64,000 nt of DNA, taken from assembly GCF_018588945.1 (NCBI RefSeq), contig NZ_JAFIWA010000001.1, forward strand, positions 682,001-746,000, in the 5' to 3' direction. Under the pieces are notes generated by a model. The model did no database searches and had not been told where the DNA came from. It saw only the letters and a list, made by a program, of their open reading frames with translations. Both the position numbers and the translations under genes were made by a program. The stretch's first letter is position 1. Every line of letters starts with the position of its first letter. Below, in pieces: positions 14,218 through 18,786 of this stretch. Origin of the DNA: Microbacterium flavescens (GTDB taxonomy: Bacteria; Actinomycetota; Actinomycetes; Actinomycetales; Microbacteriaceae).

Positions 14218-15246
14218 ATGAAGATCGGCATCCTGACCAGCGGAGGCGACTGCCCCGGACTCAACGCGGTCATCCGCGGCGTCGTGCTCAAGGGCACGAC
14301 GACGTACGACCTCGAGTTCGTCGGCATCCGCGACGGCTGGCGAGGTGTCGTCGACGGCGACTTCTTCCCGCTGACGCGTCACGAGGTGAAGGGACTGTCG
14401 AAGGTCGGCGGCACGATCCTCGGCACCTCGCGCACGAACCCGTACGAAGGGCCGCGCGGCGGGGCGGAGACCATCGCCAAGACGATGTACGGCCACCGCA
14501 TCGACGGCATCATCGCGATCGGCGGCGAGGGAACGCTGGCTGCAGCCAACCGCCTCGCGAACGACGGCATCAACGTGCTCGGCGTGCCGAAGACCATCGA
14601 CAACGACCTGCGCGCGACGGACTACTCCTTCGGCTTCGACACGGCCGTCAACATCGCGACTGAGGCGATGGACCGTCTGCGCACCACCGGCGACTCGCAC
14701 CAGCGCTGCATGGTCGCCGAGGTCATGGGCCGCCACGTCGGCTGGATCGCCCTGCACGCGGGCATCGCCGCCGGAGCCCACGCGATCTGCATCCCCGAGA
14801 TGCCGATGTCGATCGATGAGATCGCCGCCCTCGTGTCGCGCGCCCACGACCGCGGCCGCGCGCCGCTGATCGTCGTGTCGGAGGGCTTCACCCTCAAGGG
14901 CATGGACGAGGCCTACAGCGACAAGGGCCTCGACGCCTTCAATCGTCCGCGGCTCGGCGGGATCAGCGAGGTCATCGCGCCCGAGATCGAGCGCATCACC
15001 GGCATCGAGACCCGCTCGACCGTGCTCGGCCACATCCAGCGCGGCGGCTCGCCCTCAGGCTTCGACCGTGTCCTCGCCACGCGGCTCGGCCTTCACGCGG
15101 CCGACGCCGTCGTCGACGGGGCGTGGGGCCAGATGGTCGCGATGCGCGGCACCGACATCGTGCGCGTGCCGTTCGCCGAGGCCCTCGGCGAGCTCAACAC
15201 CGTCCCGCTGTACCGCTACGAAGAGGCCGCTGCGCTGTTCGGCTGA
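14218..15246 (+). CDS. pfkA: 6-phosphofructokinase (actinobacterial group)
   Basis: The enzyme phosphorylates fructose-6-phosphate to fructose-1,6-bisphosphate in glycolysis. The 342-residue protein begins MKIGILTSGGDCPGLNAVIRG, as usual. The phosphoryl-donor loop reads GGEGT (about residue 102-106) and the catalytic motif is PKTIDND near 123-129. MGRHVGWIALHAG and the LGHIQRGG sugar-phosphate motif follow. GGEGT with PKTIDND places it in the mixed group known from actinobacteria, where the donor may be ATP or pyrophosphate; sequence alone does not settle which. It stands alone behind its own promoter. Confidence 0.93.
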   Translation: MKIGILTSGGDCPGLNAVIRGVVLKGTTTYDLEFVGIRDGWRGVVDGDFFPLTRHEVKGLSKVGGTILGTSRTNPYEGPRGGAETIAKTMYGHRIDGIIAIGGEGTLAAANRLANDGINVLGVPKTIDNDLRATDYSFGFDTAVNIATEAMDRLRTTGDSHQRCMVAEVMGRHVGWIALHAGIAAGAHAICIPEMPMSIDEIAALVSRAHDRGRAPLIVVSEGFTLKGMDEAYSDKGLDAFNRPRLGGISEVIAPEIERITGIETRSTVLGHIQRGGSPSGFDRVLATRLGLHAADAVVDGAWGQMVAMRGTDIVRVPFAEALGELNTVPLYRYEEAAALFG

Positions 15247-15302
15247 TCCTCGGGCCCGCTCGCTCCCGCACGGATCTCAGGTCCGAGGCATCCGCCACCT
15301 CC

Positions 15303-15355
15303 CGTGTCTCAGTACATGGGGCTCCGCGGCGCCGCAGCTGCAGTACGTGTGACAG
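15303..15355 (+). repeat. 53-bp repeat element, copy 1
   Basis: Left end CGTGTCTCAGTA, 34 variable bases, right end GTGACAG. It lies in the 186-bp gap between pfkA and the DUF559-type gene. See copies 2 and 3. Confidence 0.7.
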
Positions 15356-15365
15356 CATTTCCGCC

Positions 15366-15418
15366 TGTGTCCCAGAAGGTGCGGGTTCGTGCGCCGAAGG
15401 CCGCGGTTTGTGTGACAT
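15366..15418 (+). repeat. 53-bp repeat element, copy 2
   Basis: Left end TGTGTCCCAGAA, 34 variable bases, right end GTGACAT. It begins 10 bp after copy 1 in the same orientation, so the two have a 63-bp period, and it ends 14 bp before the stop of the DUF559-type gene. Confidence 0.75.
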
Positions 15419-15432
15419 ACGCGCCGCCTCAC

Positions 15433-16404
15433 TCAGGGCTGACCCGGCCGCCATCCCGCGCTGACGAGGGCGTCGGCTACCCGGCGTACAGCGACCGCCG
15501 AGTCGGGGCGAAGGTGGTGGCTCAAGATGCGCACGAGTTCCCATCCCTGTGCACGGATTTCGTCCCACCGGTCGGAGTCCCGCCTGAATTGGGCCTCGTC
15601 GAACGCGTGGGTCCGCCCATCGTGCTCGACACCGACCCGGTAGCGCGGGTAGGAGAGGTCAAGCCGCGCCACGAAGCGGCCGTTGTCCGTGCACAGGCTC
15701 CAGTTCAGCAAGGGTTCGGGGAGCCCGGCGCGAATGATCGCAAGCCGAAGGGCCGTCTCTTCGGCGGTCTCCGCACCGGGTCTGATGTCCTCGATCGCCC
15801 GTGCGAGCCGCCCGCCGGAGACGTCCCCGGCTTCGGCGACCTCGCGGCGCAGATCGTCGACGGTGAGAAGGCGATTCCGCGGATGTACGAGGAAGTCTCC
15901 GGCGGCGACCAGGTCATCGTGGGCCCACAGCGTCGCCGCCTGCCGCCACAAGCGGGCCGGATGCTCGACGGGGAGCCGATCTGCGAGTCTGAGACTCGAC
16001 TCGCGTGCCTGCAGCCGGTGGCCGACCGTGCCCGCCCGACGAGGCTGCGCTGCGGGACGCCGCGCGGACACATGGACCGCCCGCTCCGACGCGGTGGTGA
16101 AGGGCAGGGGCGCACCAAGAAGCGCGAGCCCCGTCTCGTGGCTGAAGAACTGATCGGGCGTCAGCGCCGGGGCGAAGCGCCGGGCCCTGGCGAGAAGATC
16201 GTCGCGGATGCGGTTGAGTCGCTGCGTGTGCGTCTCGTCGTCGGGGGTCGCGACAGCCGGAGTCCGCGTGGTGCGGACGCCGCGCGTCGGCTTCTCGAGG
16301 TCGCTCGCTCGCAGCCGCGAGGGGGACAGGCCGTGGTTCCGGGCCTCGGCGACGCTGAAGGGCCGGTTGGTCAACGGTTCGGGGAGCGGTCGTGCGCGCG
16401 CCAT
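15433..16404 (-). CDS. AbiEi-like / DUF559 nuclease-fold protein
   Basis: The 323-residue cytoplasmic protein begins with a segment resembling the AbiEi-antitoxin winged helix (FSVAEARNHGLSPSRLRASD, then GVRTT, about residues 15-47). The middle resembles AbiEi-type antitoxin proteins (FSHETGLALLGAPLP). The C-terminal 90 residues look like DUF559, a PD-(D/E)xK fold related to very-short-patch-repair nucleases: VGVEHDGRTH, a variable spacer, then RDSDRWDEIRAQGWELVRI. No AbiEii-type toxin gene is next to it, so a classical toxin-antitoxin pair is not visible. Start: ATG at 16404 after GGGGG. Copies of a 53-bp repeat lie on both sides. The function is unknown. Confidence 0.75.
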   Translation of the reverse strand: MARARPLPEPLTNRPFSVAEARNHGLSPSRLRASDLEKPTRGVRTTRTPAVATPDDETHTQRLNRIRDDLLARARRFAPALTPDQFFSHETGLALLGAPLPFTTASERAVHVSARRPAAQPRRAGTVGHRLQARESSLRLADRLPVEHPARLWRQAATLWAHDDLVAAGDFLVHPRNRLLTVDDLRREVAEAGDVSGGRLARAIEDIRPGAETAEETALRLAIIRAGLPEPLLNWSLCTDNGRFVARLDLSYPRYRVGVEHDGRTHAFDEAQFRRDSDRWDEIRAQGWELVRILSHHLRPDSAVAVRRVADALVSAGWRPGQP

Positions 16405-16498
16405 GCCCCCAAGTGAGTCCGACGGCCGGCGCCTGCACACCCGCGCTCCCCAATTGTGGGAGCTGCCGCGCTCGCCGGCTCACGGTGGAGGAGCCGAG

Positions 16499-16551
16499 TG
16501 TGTCGCAGAACTCGCGCCCTCACGTGCCAGAGCCCGCCCGTTCTGTGACAT
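16499..16551 (+). repeat. 53-bp repeat element, copy 3
   Basis: Left end TGTGTCGCAGAA, 34 variable bases, right end GTGACAT. It is in the same orientation as copies 1 and 2 but on the other side of the DUF559-type gene, about 95 bp upstream of its start codon. Confidence 0.75.
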
Positions 16552-16622
16552 GTCGGTCGGGTGGGTCGCATGACCTGCGGGGCGAACGGCGAACGAGGCC
16601 ACAGGAAGTGCGACGGAGGGAA

Positions 16623-16654
16623 GGGCGAGCGGATGCCGCGGCATCCGCTCGCCC
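16623..16654 (-). terminator. Perfect palindrome / terminator after the oligopeptidase gene
   Basis: GGGCGAGCGGATGC and its exact complement flank CGCG. It starts 9 bp after the stop of the leftward peptidase gene. The leftward tail TTCCCTCC is only weakly U-rich, so termination efficiency is uncertain. The core is the GGATGC/GCATCC pair seen in other hairpins here. Confidence 0.65.
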
Positions 16655-16662
16655 GAAAAACC

Positions 16663-18786
16663 TCAGGCGTCTGCGACGCCGAGCACATCCAGGAGCCAGG
16701 CGAGCTCGAACGCGCGCTCGCGCCAGGCGTTGTAGCGTCCGGAGACGCCGCCGTGGCCGGCGACCATCTCGCACTTGAGGAGCGCGTCGGCACCCACCTC
16801 GCGCAGGCGCGCGACCCACTTCGCCGGCTCGACGTACAGCACGCGCGTGTCGTTCAGCGATGTGACGGCGAGGATCTTCGGGTACGAGGCATCCGTCCGC
16901 ACGTTCTCGTACGGCGAGTACGACTTCATGTAGGCGTACACGTCGGGGTTGTGCAGCGGGTCGCCCCACTCATCCCATTCGATCACCGTCAGCGGCAGCG
17001 ACGGGTCGAGGATCGTGGTGAGCGCGTCGACGAAGGGGACGTCGGCGAGGATCCCGGCGAACAGCTCGGGCGCGAGGTTGGCGACCGCGCCCATCAGCAG
17101 ACCGCCCGCCGAGCCGCCCTCGGCGACGAGCTGCGTGGGCGTGGTGTAGCCGTTGTCGATCAGGTAGCGGGCGCAGTCCACGAAGTCCGTGAACGTGTTG
17201 CGCTTGCTGAGGAGCTTGCCGTCCTCGTACCACTGGCGTCCCATCTCGCCCCCGCCGCGCACGTGGGCGACGGCGAAGATCACGCCGCGGTCGAGCTCGG
17301 AGAGCCGCGGCACCGACAGGCCGGGCTCGATCGAGTGCTCGTACGAGCCGTAGCCGTAGAGGTGCATCGGTCGCGGCGCGGCACCGGCCTCGCCGAACGC
17401 GCGCTTCCACACGAGCGACACCGGGATCTGCGTGCCGTCCTGCGACGTCGCCCACACCCGGGCCTGGGCGTAGTGGTCGGGGTCGTAGCCGCCGAGCACG
17501 GGCTGACGCTTGCGCAGCAGCCGCTCGCCCGTCGCCACGTCGTAGTCGAAGACCGTGCCGGGCGTGACGAACGAGCCGTAGCCGAGCCGCAGCAGCGGCG
17601 GCGCCCACTCCGGGTTGCCGGCCGTGCCGACCGCGTAGAGCGGCTCGTCGAACTCGATCTCGCTGACGGCTCCGCTCGCGTAGTCGAGCATCCCCAGCCG
17701 GGGGAGTCCACCGCGGCGGTAGCCGACCACGCCCCAGTCGCGGAACGTCGAGACGCCCAGCAGCCGGTGGCCCGGCTGGTGGGGGATCACCACCGTGCGC
17801 TCACCGGTGGGAGCGGATGCCGCGACCCGCACCAGCTCGAAGTCCAGGGCGTCGTCGTTGTGGAGGATGAACAGCACGTCCTCGCCGCCGATCACGGCGT
17901 GCGCGCTCTCGTACTCGACCCCCTCGGTGCGCGGCCACACCACACGCGGCTCACCGCGCAGGTCGTCGGCGTCGATCAGCCACTCCTCGGATGTGATGGA
18001 CGAGCCGATCTCGATCATCAGGTAGCGCTCGCTGCGGGTGAAGCCGGCGCCGATCCAATAGCGCTCGTCGGGCTCGTGGAAGAGCTTCACGTCACTGTCG
18101 ACCGGCGTGCCCAGCTCGTGCAGCCACACCGTGTCGGGACGCCACGCGTCGTCGACCGTGGAGTACACGATGAAACGGCCGTCGGGCGAGAACGTCGCAC
18201 CGGCGAACGTGCCGGGGATCTCGTCGGCGAGCTGCTCGCCCGTCGTCAGGTCGCGCACGCGCACCGTGTAGCGCTCGTCGCCGGCGACGTCGACGCCGTA
18301 GAGCATGAGGTTGCCGTCGTTGGAGATCTCGAAGCTCCCGAGTGAGAAGAACTCGTGTCCTTCGGCCTCGACGTTGCTGTCGAGGAGCACCTGCTCGCCG
18401 GGGACCTCGGTGTCGGGGGAGAGCTCGGGGGGCGTCCAGTCGTCGGGGGAGGCGAGCGGTGCACGGCACTGGATGCCGTACTGGCTCCCCTCGACGGTGC
18501 GCCCGTAGTACCACCACTGGCCGCGCCGCGTCGGCACGGAGAGGTCGGTCTCGAGGGTGCGGCTCTTGATCTCGTCGAAGATGCGCTCGCGCAACCCGCC
18601 GAGGTGCGCGGTCCGGGCCTCGGTATAGGCGTTCTCGGCCTCGAGATGCGCCACCACGGCGGCATCCTCCTTGGCCCGGAACCACTCGTAGCGGTCTTCG
18701 ACGTCGTCGCCGTGATGGCTGCGTACGACGGGGCGAGGGTCGGCGATGGGGGCGGATGCTGCGGCAGAGGTGTCGTGGACGGTCAC
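16663..18786 (-). CDS. ptrB: S9 family peptidase, oligopeptidase B type
   Basis: The 707-residue protein fits oligopeptidase B, a cytoplasmic serine peptidase that cuts short peptides, usually after Arg or Lys. The N-terminal two thirds form the beta-propeller domain. The catalytic domain shows GGGEMGRQWYEDGKLLSKRNTF, GGSAGGLLMG (nucleophile Ser near residue 557), SLNDTRV (Asp) and VAGHGG (His). No signal peptide is present. The GTG start is preceded at 7 bases by TAGCGT on the coding strand, suggesting a leaderless transcript. The gene symbol is by family analogy. Confidence 0.9.
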   Translation of the reverse strand: MTVHDTSAAASAPIADPRPVVRSHHGDDVEDRYEWFRAKEDAAVVAHLEAENAYTEARTAHLGGLRERIFDEIKSRTLETDLSVPTRRGQWWYYGRTVEGSQYGIQCRAPLASPDDWTPPELSPDTEVPGEQVLLDSNVEAEGHEFFSLGSFEISNDGNLMLYGVDVAGDERYTVRVRDLTTGEQLADEIPGTFAGATFSPDGRFIVYSTVDDAWRPDTVWLHELGTPVDSDVKLFHEPDERYWIGAGFTRSERYLMIEIGSSITSEEWLIDADDLRGEPRVVWPRTEGVEYESAHAVIGGEDVLFILHNDDALDFELVRVAASAPTGERTVVIPHQPGHRLLGVSTFRDWGVVGYRRGGLPRLGMLDYASGAVSEIEFDEPLYAVGTAGNPEWAPPLLRLGYGSFVTPGTVFDYDVATGERLLRKRQPVLGGYDPDHYAQARVWATSQDGTQIPVSLVWKRAFGEAGAAPRPMHLYGYGSYEHSIEPGLSVPRLSELDRGVIFAVAHVRGGGEMGRQWYEDGKLLSKRNTFTDFVDCARYLIDNGYTTPTQLVAEGGSAGGLLMGAVANLAPELFAGILADVPFVDALTTILDPSLPLTVIEWDEWGDPLHNPDVYAYMKSYSPYENVRTDASYPKILAVTSLNDTRVLYVEPAKWVARLREVGADALLKCEMVAGHGGVSGRYNAWRERAFELAWLLDVLGVADA

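Follow-up and report, generated by a model that had tools for sequence, protein, structure and literature searches.

In Microbacterium flavescens, a gene that is predicted to encode a fusion of an AbiEi-antitoxin fold with a Vsr/EDxHD nuclease fold is flanked on both sides by imperfect palindromes of about 50 bp, and further copies of the same palindrome family are dispersed through the genomes of the genus. The data below show the family itself, its geometry, its flanking of the gene, its co-occurrence with the gene, the match between flanking and dispersed sequences, and one local tandem gain. The explanation that we consider probable is that these are the cognate sites of an AbiEi-type protein and have spread, in the manner of REP elements and their RAYT proteins, by or together with a nuclease that is not a RAYT. 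All of the evidence consists of sequence and predicted structure, and so binding, catalysis (including cutting) and nuclease-driven copying are inferences.

The locus and its protein

The locus lies in a 64,000-nucleotide stretch of M. flavescens DNA (contig NZ_JAFIWA010000001.1, positions 682,001 to 746,000; hereafter the window), and its features are as follows, in window coordinates.

14218..15246, + strand: phosphofructokinase gene, left neighbour (PF00365, E 6e-102)
15305..15354: palindromic element 1, 50 bp, TGTC...GACA, downstream of the gene
15368..15417: palindromic element 2, 50 bp, 63 bp after element 1, downstream of the gene
15433..16440, - strand: cognate gene, predicted AbiEi-like DNA-binding fold plus Vsr/EDxHD-like nuclease, 335 aa as listed
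15451..15774, - strand: residues 223-330, predicted nuclease domain (fold matches, conserved residues)
15781..16398, - strand: residues 15-220, predicted AbiEi antitoxin fold (DNA-binding part plus nucleotidyltransferase-like part)
16501..16550: palindromic element 3, 50 bp, upstream of the gene
16663..18786, - strand: S9 prolyl oligopeptidase-family gene ('ptrB'), right neighbour (PF02897, PF00326)

A conserved Met13 suggests that translation of the cognate gene starts at 16404. The sequence-only reading had called this gene AbiEi-like/DUF559 nuclease-like. The AlphaFold2 (AF2) model of the window protein has a mean pLDDT of 94.2, and its residues 15-220 align with AbiEi of S. agalactiae (6y8q; Z 10.4, 173-175 residues, rmsd 5.4-5.6) and with Rv2827c (1zel; Z 7.3, 183 residues, rmsd 4.1-4.2). 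The N-terminal part modelled alone (pLDDT 93.1) gives the same fold matches, and the entries above Z 3 among 97 chains compared with it are AbiEi, Rv2827c, MenAT proteins and other nucleotidyltransferase-fold entries; one N-terminal match is presumably the protein labelled JHP933. Residues 223-330 align with I-Bth0305I (3r3p; Z 12.8, 96 residues, rmsd 2.5), NGO0050 (Z 11.4) and DNA-bound Vsr (1cw0; Z 10.2, 100 residues, rmsd 2.4), and more weakly with the transposon endonuclease TnsA (Z 6.4). As a caveat, mitochondrial ribosome proteins also reach Z 8 to 10 against the nuclease part. Because Foldseek found no match in the PDB at E 0.001 or below, the fold assignments rest on a second look with VIA-align.

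Across 44 proteins (the gene fragment L192 being left out, as it was from the in-genus flank counts below), E228, E272, H278 and D288 are invariant and D261 is kept in at least 90%; EDxHD gives the motif letters that we assume for this nuclease domain. Family-level searches are less informative. The Pfam match to PF18741 (MTES_1575; E 3e-7) falls below the curated cut-off, PADLOC gives only a weak AbiEi match (E 0.022), and no NCBIfam family model matches the protein. Pfam scans of the window protein, L061 and L183 returned only MTES_1575/DUF559 and no Y1 (HuH) domain, and scans of six homologues contained no transposase domain. The MTES_1575 domain is named as a novel Vsr REase in the HEPN paper (PMC3710099), and the family annotated as DUF559 or MTES_1575 was found in 66 of 85 genera sampled. 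In the model, an AbiEi-antitoxin fold is joined to a nuclease fold of the Vsr/EDxHD type, the activity of which is predicted only.

No toxin gene lies beside the AbiEi-like gene, whose neighbours in the window are the phosphofructokinase (pfk) and S9 peptidase genes. One or both of these also adjoin 24 of the 30 homologues examined, indicating that the gene is a long-term resident of this neighbourhood. The pfk/S9 peptidase gap is an apparent exchange site for AbiEi-DUF559 families. In the window (15246-16663) and at L184-L203 it holds varied AbiEi-DUF559 families according to species, in one or the other orientation, or contains almost nothing. In genomes without the window-type gene the gap is sometimes short; of 17 long gaps examined among them, 11 encode proteins resembling another AbiEi-DUF559 family (the two scanned matched PF04480), mostly accompanied by palindromes of ~53-65 bp with arms containing CAGG/CCTG. 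In G011 (L186:1284-2267) the gap encodes a protein of 328 aa that has no clear Pfam family, with a 63-bp palindrome to one side of the gene.

Geometry and cognate sequence of the palindromes

Measured from GTGTC through GTGACA on the + strand, the three window copies span 51 bp each (15304-15354, 15367-15417 and 16500-16550). Because the gene is on the - strand, elements 1 and 2 form a downstream pair, the latter ending 15 bp beyond the stop codon, and element 3 is upstream. These coordinates bear out the original description of three copies of fixed length in the same orientation, two after the gene and one before it. With a free gap of 30-40 bp the window contains 3 pattern matches, against a mean of 0.02 in 100 shuffles; the strict pattern with a gap of 25-45 bp finds only the same 3 in the 3.42-Mb genome. 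A symmetric pattern, TGTCNCA-N36/37-TGNGACA, finds 7 copies in that genome, 3 at the gene and 4 elsewhere.

The outer pairs of the three window copies are complementary at 11, 13 and 15 of 20 positions, and each element is thus an imperfect palindrome. The sequence-only reading had recognized the elements at this locus and their fixed spacing correctly; it missed the palindromy and the generality of the arrangement, and the 34 bases that it took as unrelated sequence are not merely that, as the arms of the palindrome run into them. Since the element consists of two inverted half-sites of ~20 bp, the 'variable core' is mostly arm. The earlier view that this is neither a CRISPR array nor a simple terminal repeat was sound: the elements are fixed-length dyads and the repeats are not identical, which rules out both. 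Chance occurrence is excluded by the window shuffles together with the reversed-pattern control in the genus (see below).

Taken over 196 distinct elements from 39 genomes, the half-site consensus is TGTC-n-C-A-(S)(W)(W)-nnn-G-C-n-G, with two conserved blocks about one helical turn apart; the search expression itself partly dictates positions 1-4, 6 and 7. Within the fetched loci, TGTCNCA...TGNGACA elements are 50 bp (37) or 51 bp (81) long, with a second peak at 71-72 bp (7 and 12) and 6 others at 36-79 bp. The second peak is due to an additional half-site, in direct orientation, 21 bp beyond the palindrome. Over 584 palindrome orientations, such extra half-sites occur at 21 bp (59 cases), 42 bp (14) and 22 bp (12). 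Distances between neighbouring palindromes are mostly 63-65, 73-76, 84-85, 94-95, 103-106 and 114-116 bp, with rarer values of 16, 92, 111 and 132-146 bp (one or two cases each), and the 63-bp step between elements 1 and 2 recurs in relatives, where 63-64 bp is common. The 67 distances below 150 bp recur with a period of about 10 bp (best R 0.79 at 10.0-10.1, and R 0.70 at 10.5). The corresponding Rayleigh p of 4e-15 presumes independence, which is violated by related arrays.

The origin of the symmetry was addressed by shuffling arms. Exchanging 3' arms within genomes costs little pairing (11.56 before and 11.34 of 18 positions after; z 2.4), apart from positions 13 and 16, which pair above this shuffle, and exchanging arms across genomes lowers it to 8.44 of 18 (z 20.7). 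The symmetry therefore comes almost wholly from the presence of two copies of a genome-specific half-site; the palindrome is almost wholly an operator-like dyad and not the result of element-specific base pairing.

Palindromes flank homologues of the gene well beyond M. flavescens. At a palindrome score of at least 15, they were found in 84 of the 104 flanks of 52 in-genus homologues, and the corresponding counts are 63 of 832 for shuffled flanks and 37 of 275 for distant or in-gene windows; at a score of at least 17, the numbers are 57 of the 104 flanks, 5 shuffled flanks and 4 distant or in-gene windows. At the lower score, 34 of the 52 in-genus loci have palindromes on both sides and 50 have at least one. 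The 28 loci from other genera of the family behave similarly (42 of 55 flanks, against 40 of 440 shuffled and 21 of 166 distant or in-gene windows), with a palindrome on at least one side at 26 loci and on both at 16. Analysis A1 left out L058 and L059 and had no match for L046 and L052. Remoter paralogues have very different palindromes, for example GTGTCCAAGACAC..., GCGGTCCGGGTT... and CTCCCCTGTCACGA....

The flanking sequences are also matched to the gene that they flank. The left and right palindromes of one gene match at 18.2 of 24, versus 10.9 between genes (permutation p 2e-4), and the best partner of a palindrome is the other side of its own gene at 35 of 50 loci (52 loci were preselected for scoring on both sides, and 50 passed, 34 in-genus and 16 outside). 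Half-site similarity tracks protein identity (r 0.63, 33 loci, p 5e-4), also when pairs that are both at the shared locus are removed (r 0.55, p 5e-4). Furthermore, the 65 dispersed copies compared, from 10 genomes, are similar to the copies that flank the gene in the same genome (mean rank 3.75 of 25, p 5e-4). The resemblance is clear in G038 (which supplies 20 of the 65 elements), G063, G082 and G000, and weak in G130, G134, G109 and G030. In the same 10-genome test, the dispersed copies of G099 and G078 do not match the gene-flanking type, a result that counts against the preferred explanation. The gene flanks of these two genomes are of the TGTCCGG type and the dispersed copies of the TGTCNCAG type (L063 and L064 versus L037-L040 and L154-L157).

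Dispersed copies in Microbacterium

A search of 149 genomes of the genus with the symmetric pattern at exact spacing yielded 631 matches, compared to 21 for the reversed pattern (one strand counted). The occurrence of the pattern above chance elsewhere, one of the tests set when the elements were first noticed, is thereby met. The matches are spread over 57 of the 149 genomes, with the highest numbers in G057 (85), G035 (44) and G136 (38). Among 22 genomes of named relatives, 21 carry 2 to 21 copies, including those of M. testaceum, M. saccharophilum, M. aerolatum and M. album; the remaining one, M. oleivorans NBRC 103075, has none. A tandem repeat, GTGTCTCAGGACATCGGTGACAGTTG, also fits the strict pattern and looks like another kind of repeat (G115:C6:72154-72201 and C12:85-132; L010).

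Copy number goes with the presence of the gene. At least two copies were found in 36 of the 43 genomes in which the adjacent gene has a strong homologue (E of 1e-65 or better) and in 10 of the 106 others (p 1.5e-18; Spearman 0.61), and five thresholds were tried, with p at most 2.2e-11. Because the genomes are those of related species and no phylogenetic correction was applied, p-values that treat them as independent are too small. Two groups of genomes count against the preferred explanation, namely the 10 with at least two copies and no strong homologue among the candidates scored (at most 14 per genome, on which any statement of absence rests), and the 7 with a strong homologue and fewer than two copies. 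Two of those 7, G034 and G050, have variant TGTCCGG/TGTCCC palindromes that are invisible to the pattern. The proposed link between copies and DUF559-type genes is upheld by position, co-occurrence and matched sequence alike.

A second palindrome family, GTGTCCA...TGGACAC, has 559 matches in 28 genomes (up to 59 in one), against a control total of one. Two or more of its copies occur in 14 of the 16 genomes with its gene type, among the matches listed, and in 7 of the 133 others; this gene list was drawn up post hoc from the matches listed, and G000 was placed with the others despite having the gene. Among 20 paralogue loci (L164-L183), all 5 with GTGTCCA flanks come from genomes with 12 to 37 copies of this family, and of the other 15 loci, 2 come from genomes with copies (5 in G095 and 19 in G000; p 0.0014). 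The 19 copies in G000 are no contradiction, because one of them lies ~200 bp from another paralogue, which is of the appropriate kind. In the window's genome this second family, GTGTCCAGGAC...TGGACAC, with its 19 copies outnumbers the family of the window gene. A paralogous gene lies beside one second-family copy (G000:C1 near 155046-156285; L372), and a further paralogue (G000:C14:95836-96774; L183) has CTCCCCTGTCACGA-type palindromes on its flanks.

Dispersed elements are mostly intergenic. Only 15 of 93 lie inside predicted genes, compared to 2443 of 2915 random positions at the same loci. Intergenic sites, counted once each, fall between convergent (20), co-directional (27) and divergent (4) genes, and element-free gaps are distributed 16, 30 and 21 among the same classes (convergent versus divergent, p 0.003). 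The gene calls behind these placement counts come from a crude script.

Evidence on how copies arise is limited to one case. At a syntenic site in M. testaceum there is one element in NBRC 12675 and two in StLB037, a strain with 10 copies in all, and from its sequence the second StLB037 element looks like a copy of a ~104-bp unit, that is, a tandem duplication; arrays in FXH-28 step by 105 bp. Precise insertion at a new place was not found in the comparisons of G038, and the M. testaceum genomes gave the tandem duplication instead. The lack of a clean empty site at a new locus between G038 and its relatives counts against the preferred explanation. At one syntenic site the elements are absent from a relative of 80% identity, and the alignment is too poor to show insertion. 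No target-site duplication was seen, in the absence of any closely matched empty site, the relatives being too diverged. The suggested comparison of matching loci was confined to different species, where it yielded the tandem gain and an absence that aligns poorly.

Explanations and known systems

According to the preferred explanation, the AbiEi-like part of the protein would bind half-sites of ~20 bp as inverted pairs, which make up the palindrome of 50-51 bp; additional half-sites or palindromes would lie on the same helical face. The Vsr/EDxHD-like part would be a nuclease that acts at these sites or close to them. The gene would be resident and mostly vertically inherited, with its own sites on its flanks. 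Genomes that keep it would gain extra copies elsewhere, mostly in intergenic regions and rarely in divergent promoter regions, through nuclease-driven copying of elements to new places. The parts of this scheme are not equally secure. We consider it likely that the protein binds the palindromic sites, an inference from the AbiEi-like fold and the operator-like geometry that has no binding data behind it. Whether the nuclease drives the spread of the sites we regard as evenly balanced, for mobilisation is inferred and has not been shown. Somewhat below even, and hence put forward only tentatively, is the broader proposal that this would be a second, independently evolved REP-like system, in which AbiEi-Vsr fusions throughout the Microbacteriaceae, working as site-specific enzymes, spread their own operators across the chromosome, with subfamily-specific palindromes, several systems coexisting in a genome and an exchange site between pfk and ptrB.

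Three other explanations must be weighed, and they rank in the order given here. The palindromes could be operators only, with the protein repressing its own gene and a small regulon, the nuclease serving some purpose such as defence, and no spreading at all. The element upstream of the gene and the dyad-type palindromy speak for such a model, and the autoregulators AbiEi and Rv2827c have 23-bp inverted repeats as binding sites (PMC7319586). We nonetheless consider this model unlikely: the gene has sites on either side, species differ in copy number from 0 to 85, and dispersed sites avoid divergent promoter regions (4 divergent and 20 convergent, versus 21 and 16 for element-free gaps; p 0.003). 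Autoregulation alone is disfavoured by the downstream and dispersed sites. It is more doubtful still that the gene and its palindromic ends are, or recently were, a mobile transposon-like unit of which the scattered copies are solo ends or MITE-like derivatives. The long residence implied by 24 of 30 homologues in the same pfk/S9 peptidase neighbourhood argues against mobility, as do the missing transposase domain in six Pfam-scanned homologues and, with no closely matched empty site to compare, the failure to see a target duplication. In favour of such a unit are the 71-72-bp tripartite blocks, extra half-site outermost, at both ends of L080, L081, L085 and L086, a gene orientation relative to pfk that differs from the window at L071, L082 and L103, and the presence of TnsA among the weaker fold matches (Z 6.4).

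Finally, the elements might act as RNA or single-stranded DNA hairpins (terminators, or classical REPs mobilised by a different enzyme) and be linked to the gene merely by sharing intergenic space. This we regard as very improbable. The palindromes are indeed mostly intergenic, often following the 3' ends of genes, and 2 of the 18 arm positions (13 and 16) pair above the within-genome shuffle; against this, overall pairing is barely changed by that shuffle (11.34 versus 11.56 of 18), the spacing follows helical turns, and the match to gene type holds across genera. A hairpin maintained by compensation is accordingly unsupported overall.

If the preferred explanation, spread of cognate sites by or with the nuclease, is true, a non-homologous protein has the same association with palindromes, and the arrangement has evolved more than once. 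The DUF559/MTES_1575 family would gain a testable role, and dozens of protein-site pairs of differing specificity would be suited to binding assays. The logic is that of REP and RAYT, which is already known; the protein and the type of site are unrelated to either. No published description was found in open-licence PMC papers (subscription journals and preprints were outside the scope of the search).

The closest precedent for the sites themselves is found in AbiEi-type operators. According to PMC7319586, AbiEi binds two 23-bp inverted repeats 3 bp apart, and in the promoter of Rv2827c such 23-bp repeats form two pairs, the members of a pair being separated by 13 bp and the pairs by 4 bp, which gives a pair period of 23+13+23+4 = 63 bp. 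The present system resembles these operators in the fold of residues 15-220, in its inverted repeats of ~23 bp and in the 63-bp pair period, and it resembles AbiE type IV toxin-antitoxin systems in having inverted repeats upstream of the gene (16501-16550). It differs in that sites also occur downstream and genome-wide, a nuclease is fused to the protein, and no toxin gene is adjacent. The fold of residues 223-330 and the conserved acidic and His positions are shared with Vsr and with EDxHD homing endonucleases (I-Bth0305I); unlike homing endonuclease genes, this gene is intergenic rather than within a host gene or intron, and it keeps many flanking sites rather than a single target. Tn7-type ends consist of repeated transposase sites of ~21 bp. 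By analogy, the elements may be likened to these in their repeated ~21-bp sites, and TnsA shares the broad nuclease fold (Z 6.4), whereas no transposase domain was found here and the gene has long resided at one place.

Among proteins associated with dispersed palindromes in bacteria, RAYT is the best known. The REP palindrome is reportedly accompanied by a GTAG or CGTC tag, as the title of PMC3733652 has it; no such tag is evident in the 12 bp just beyond 580 element ends (GTAG 3 and CGTC 37, versus 5 and 46 in the 12 bp further out). Copy numbers here (0-85) are low compared to those of REPs (usually >100), which counts against the preferred explanation. The protein differs from RAYT in being an AbiEi-Vsr fusion in which no Y1/HuH domain was found, and the sites differ from REPs in being dyads of ~50 bp with helical phasing and almost no hairpin compensation. 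Because the RAYT domain and the tag are absent, and the AbiEi fold and site geometry are present, we call the system REP-like and not RAYT. The comparison with REP elements and their transposases drawn in the sequence-only reading fits well with respect to flanking, co-occurrence and matched sequence, with mobilisation by the nuclease not shown. According to PMC2817692, RAYT genes are flanked on both sides by palindromes that co-diverge with them, and the abundance of the palindromes follows the gene. The same traits of REP/REPIN and RAYT systems recur here, in a resident nuclease-type gene with co-diverging palindromes on both sides, in genome-specific dispersed intergenic copies that track the presence of the gene, and in tandem arrays (PMC2817692). 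The best explanation of these likenesses is that the system may work like REP and RAYT, with an unrelated protein and with duplex dyad sites in place of hairpins.
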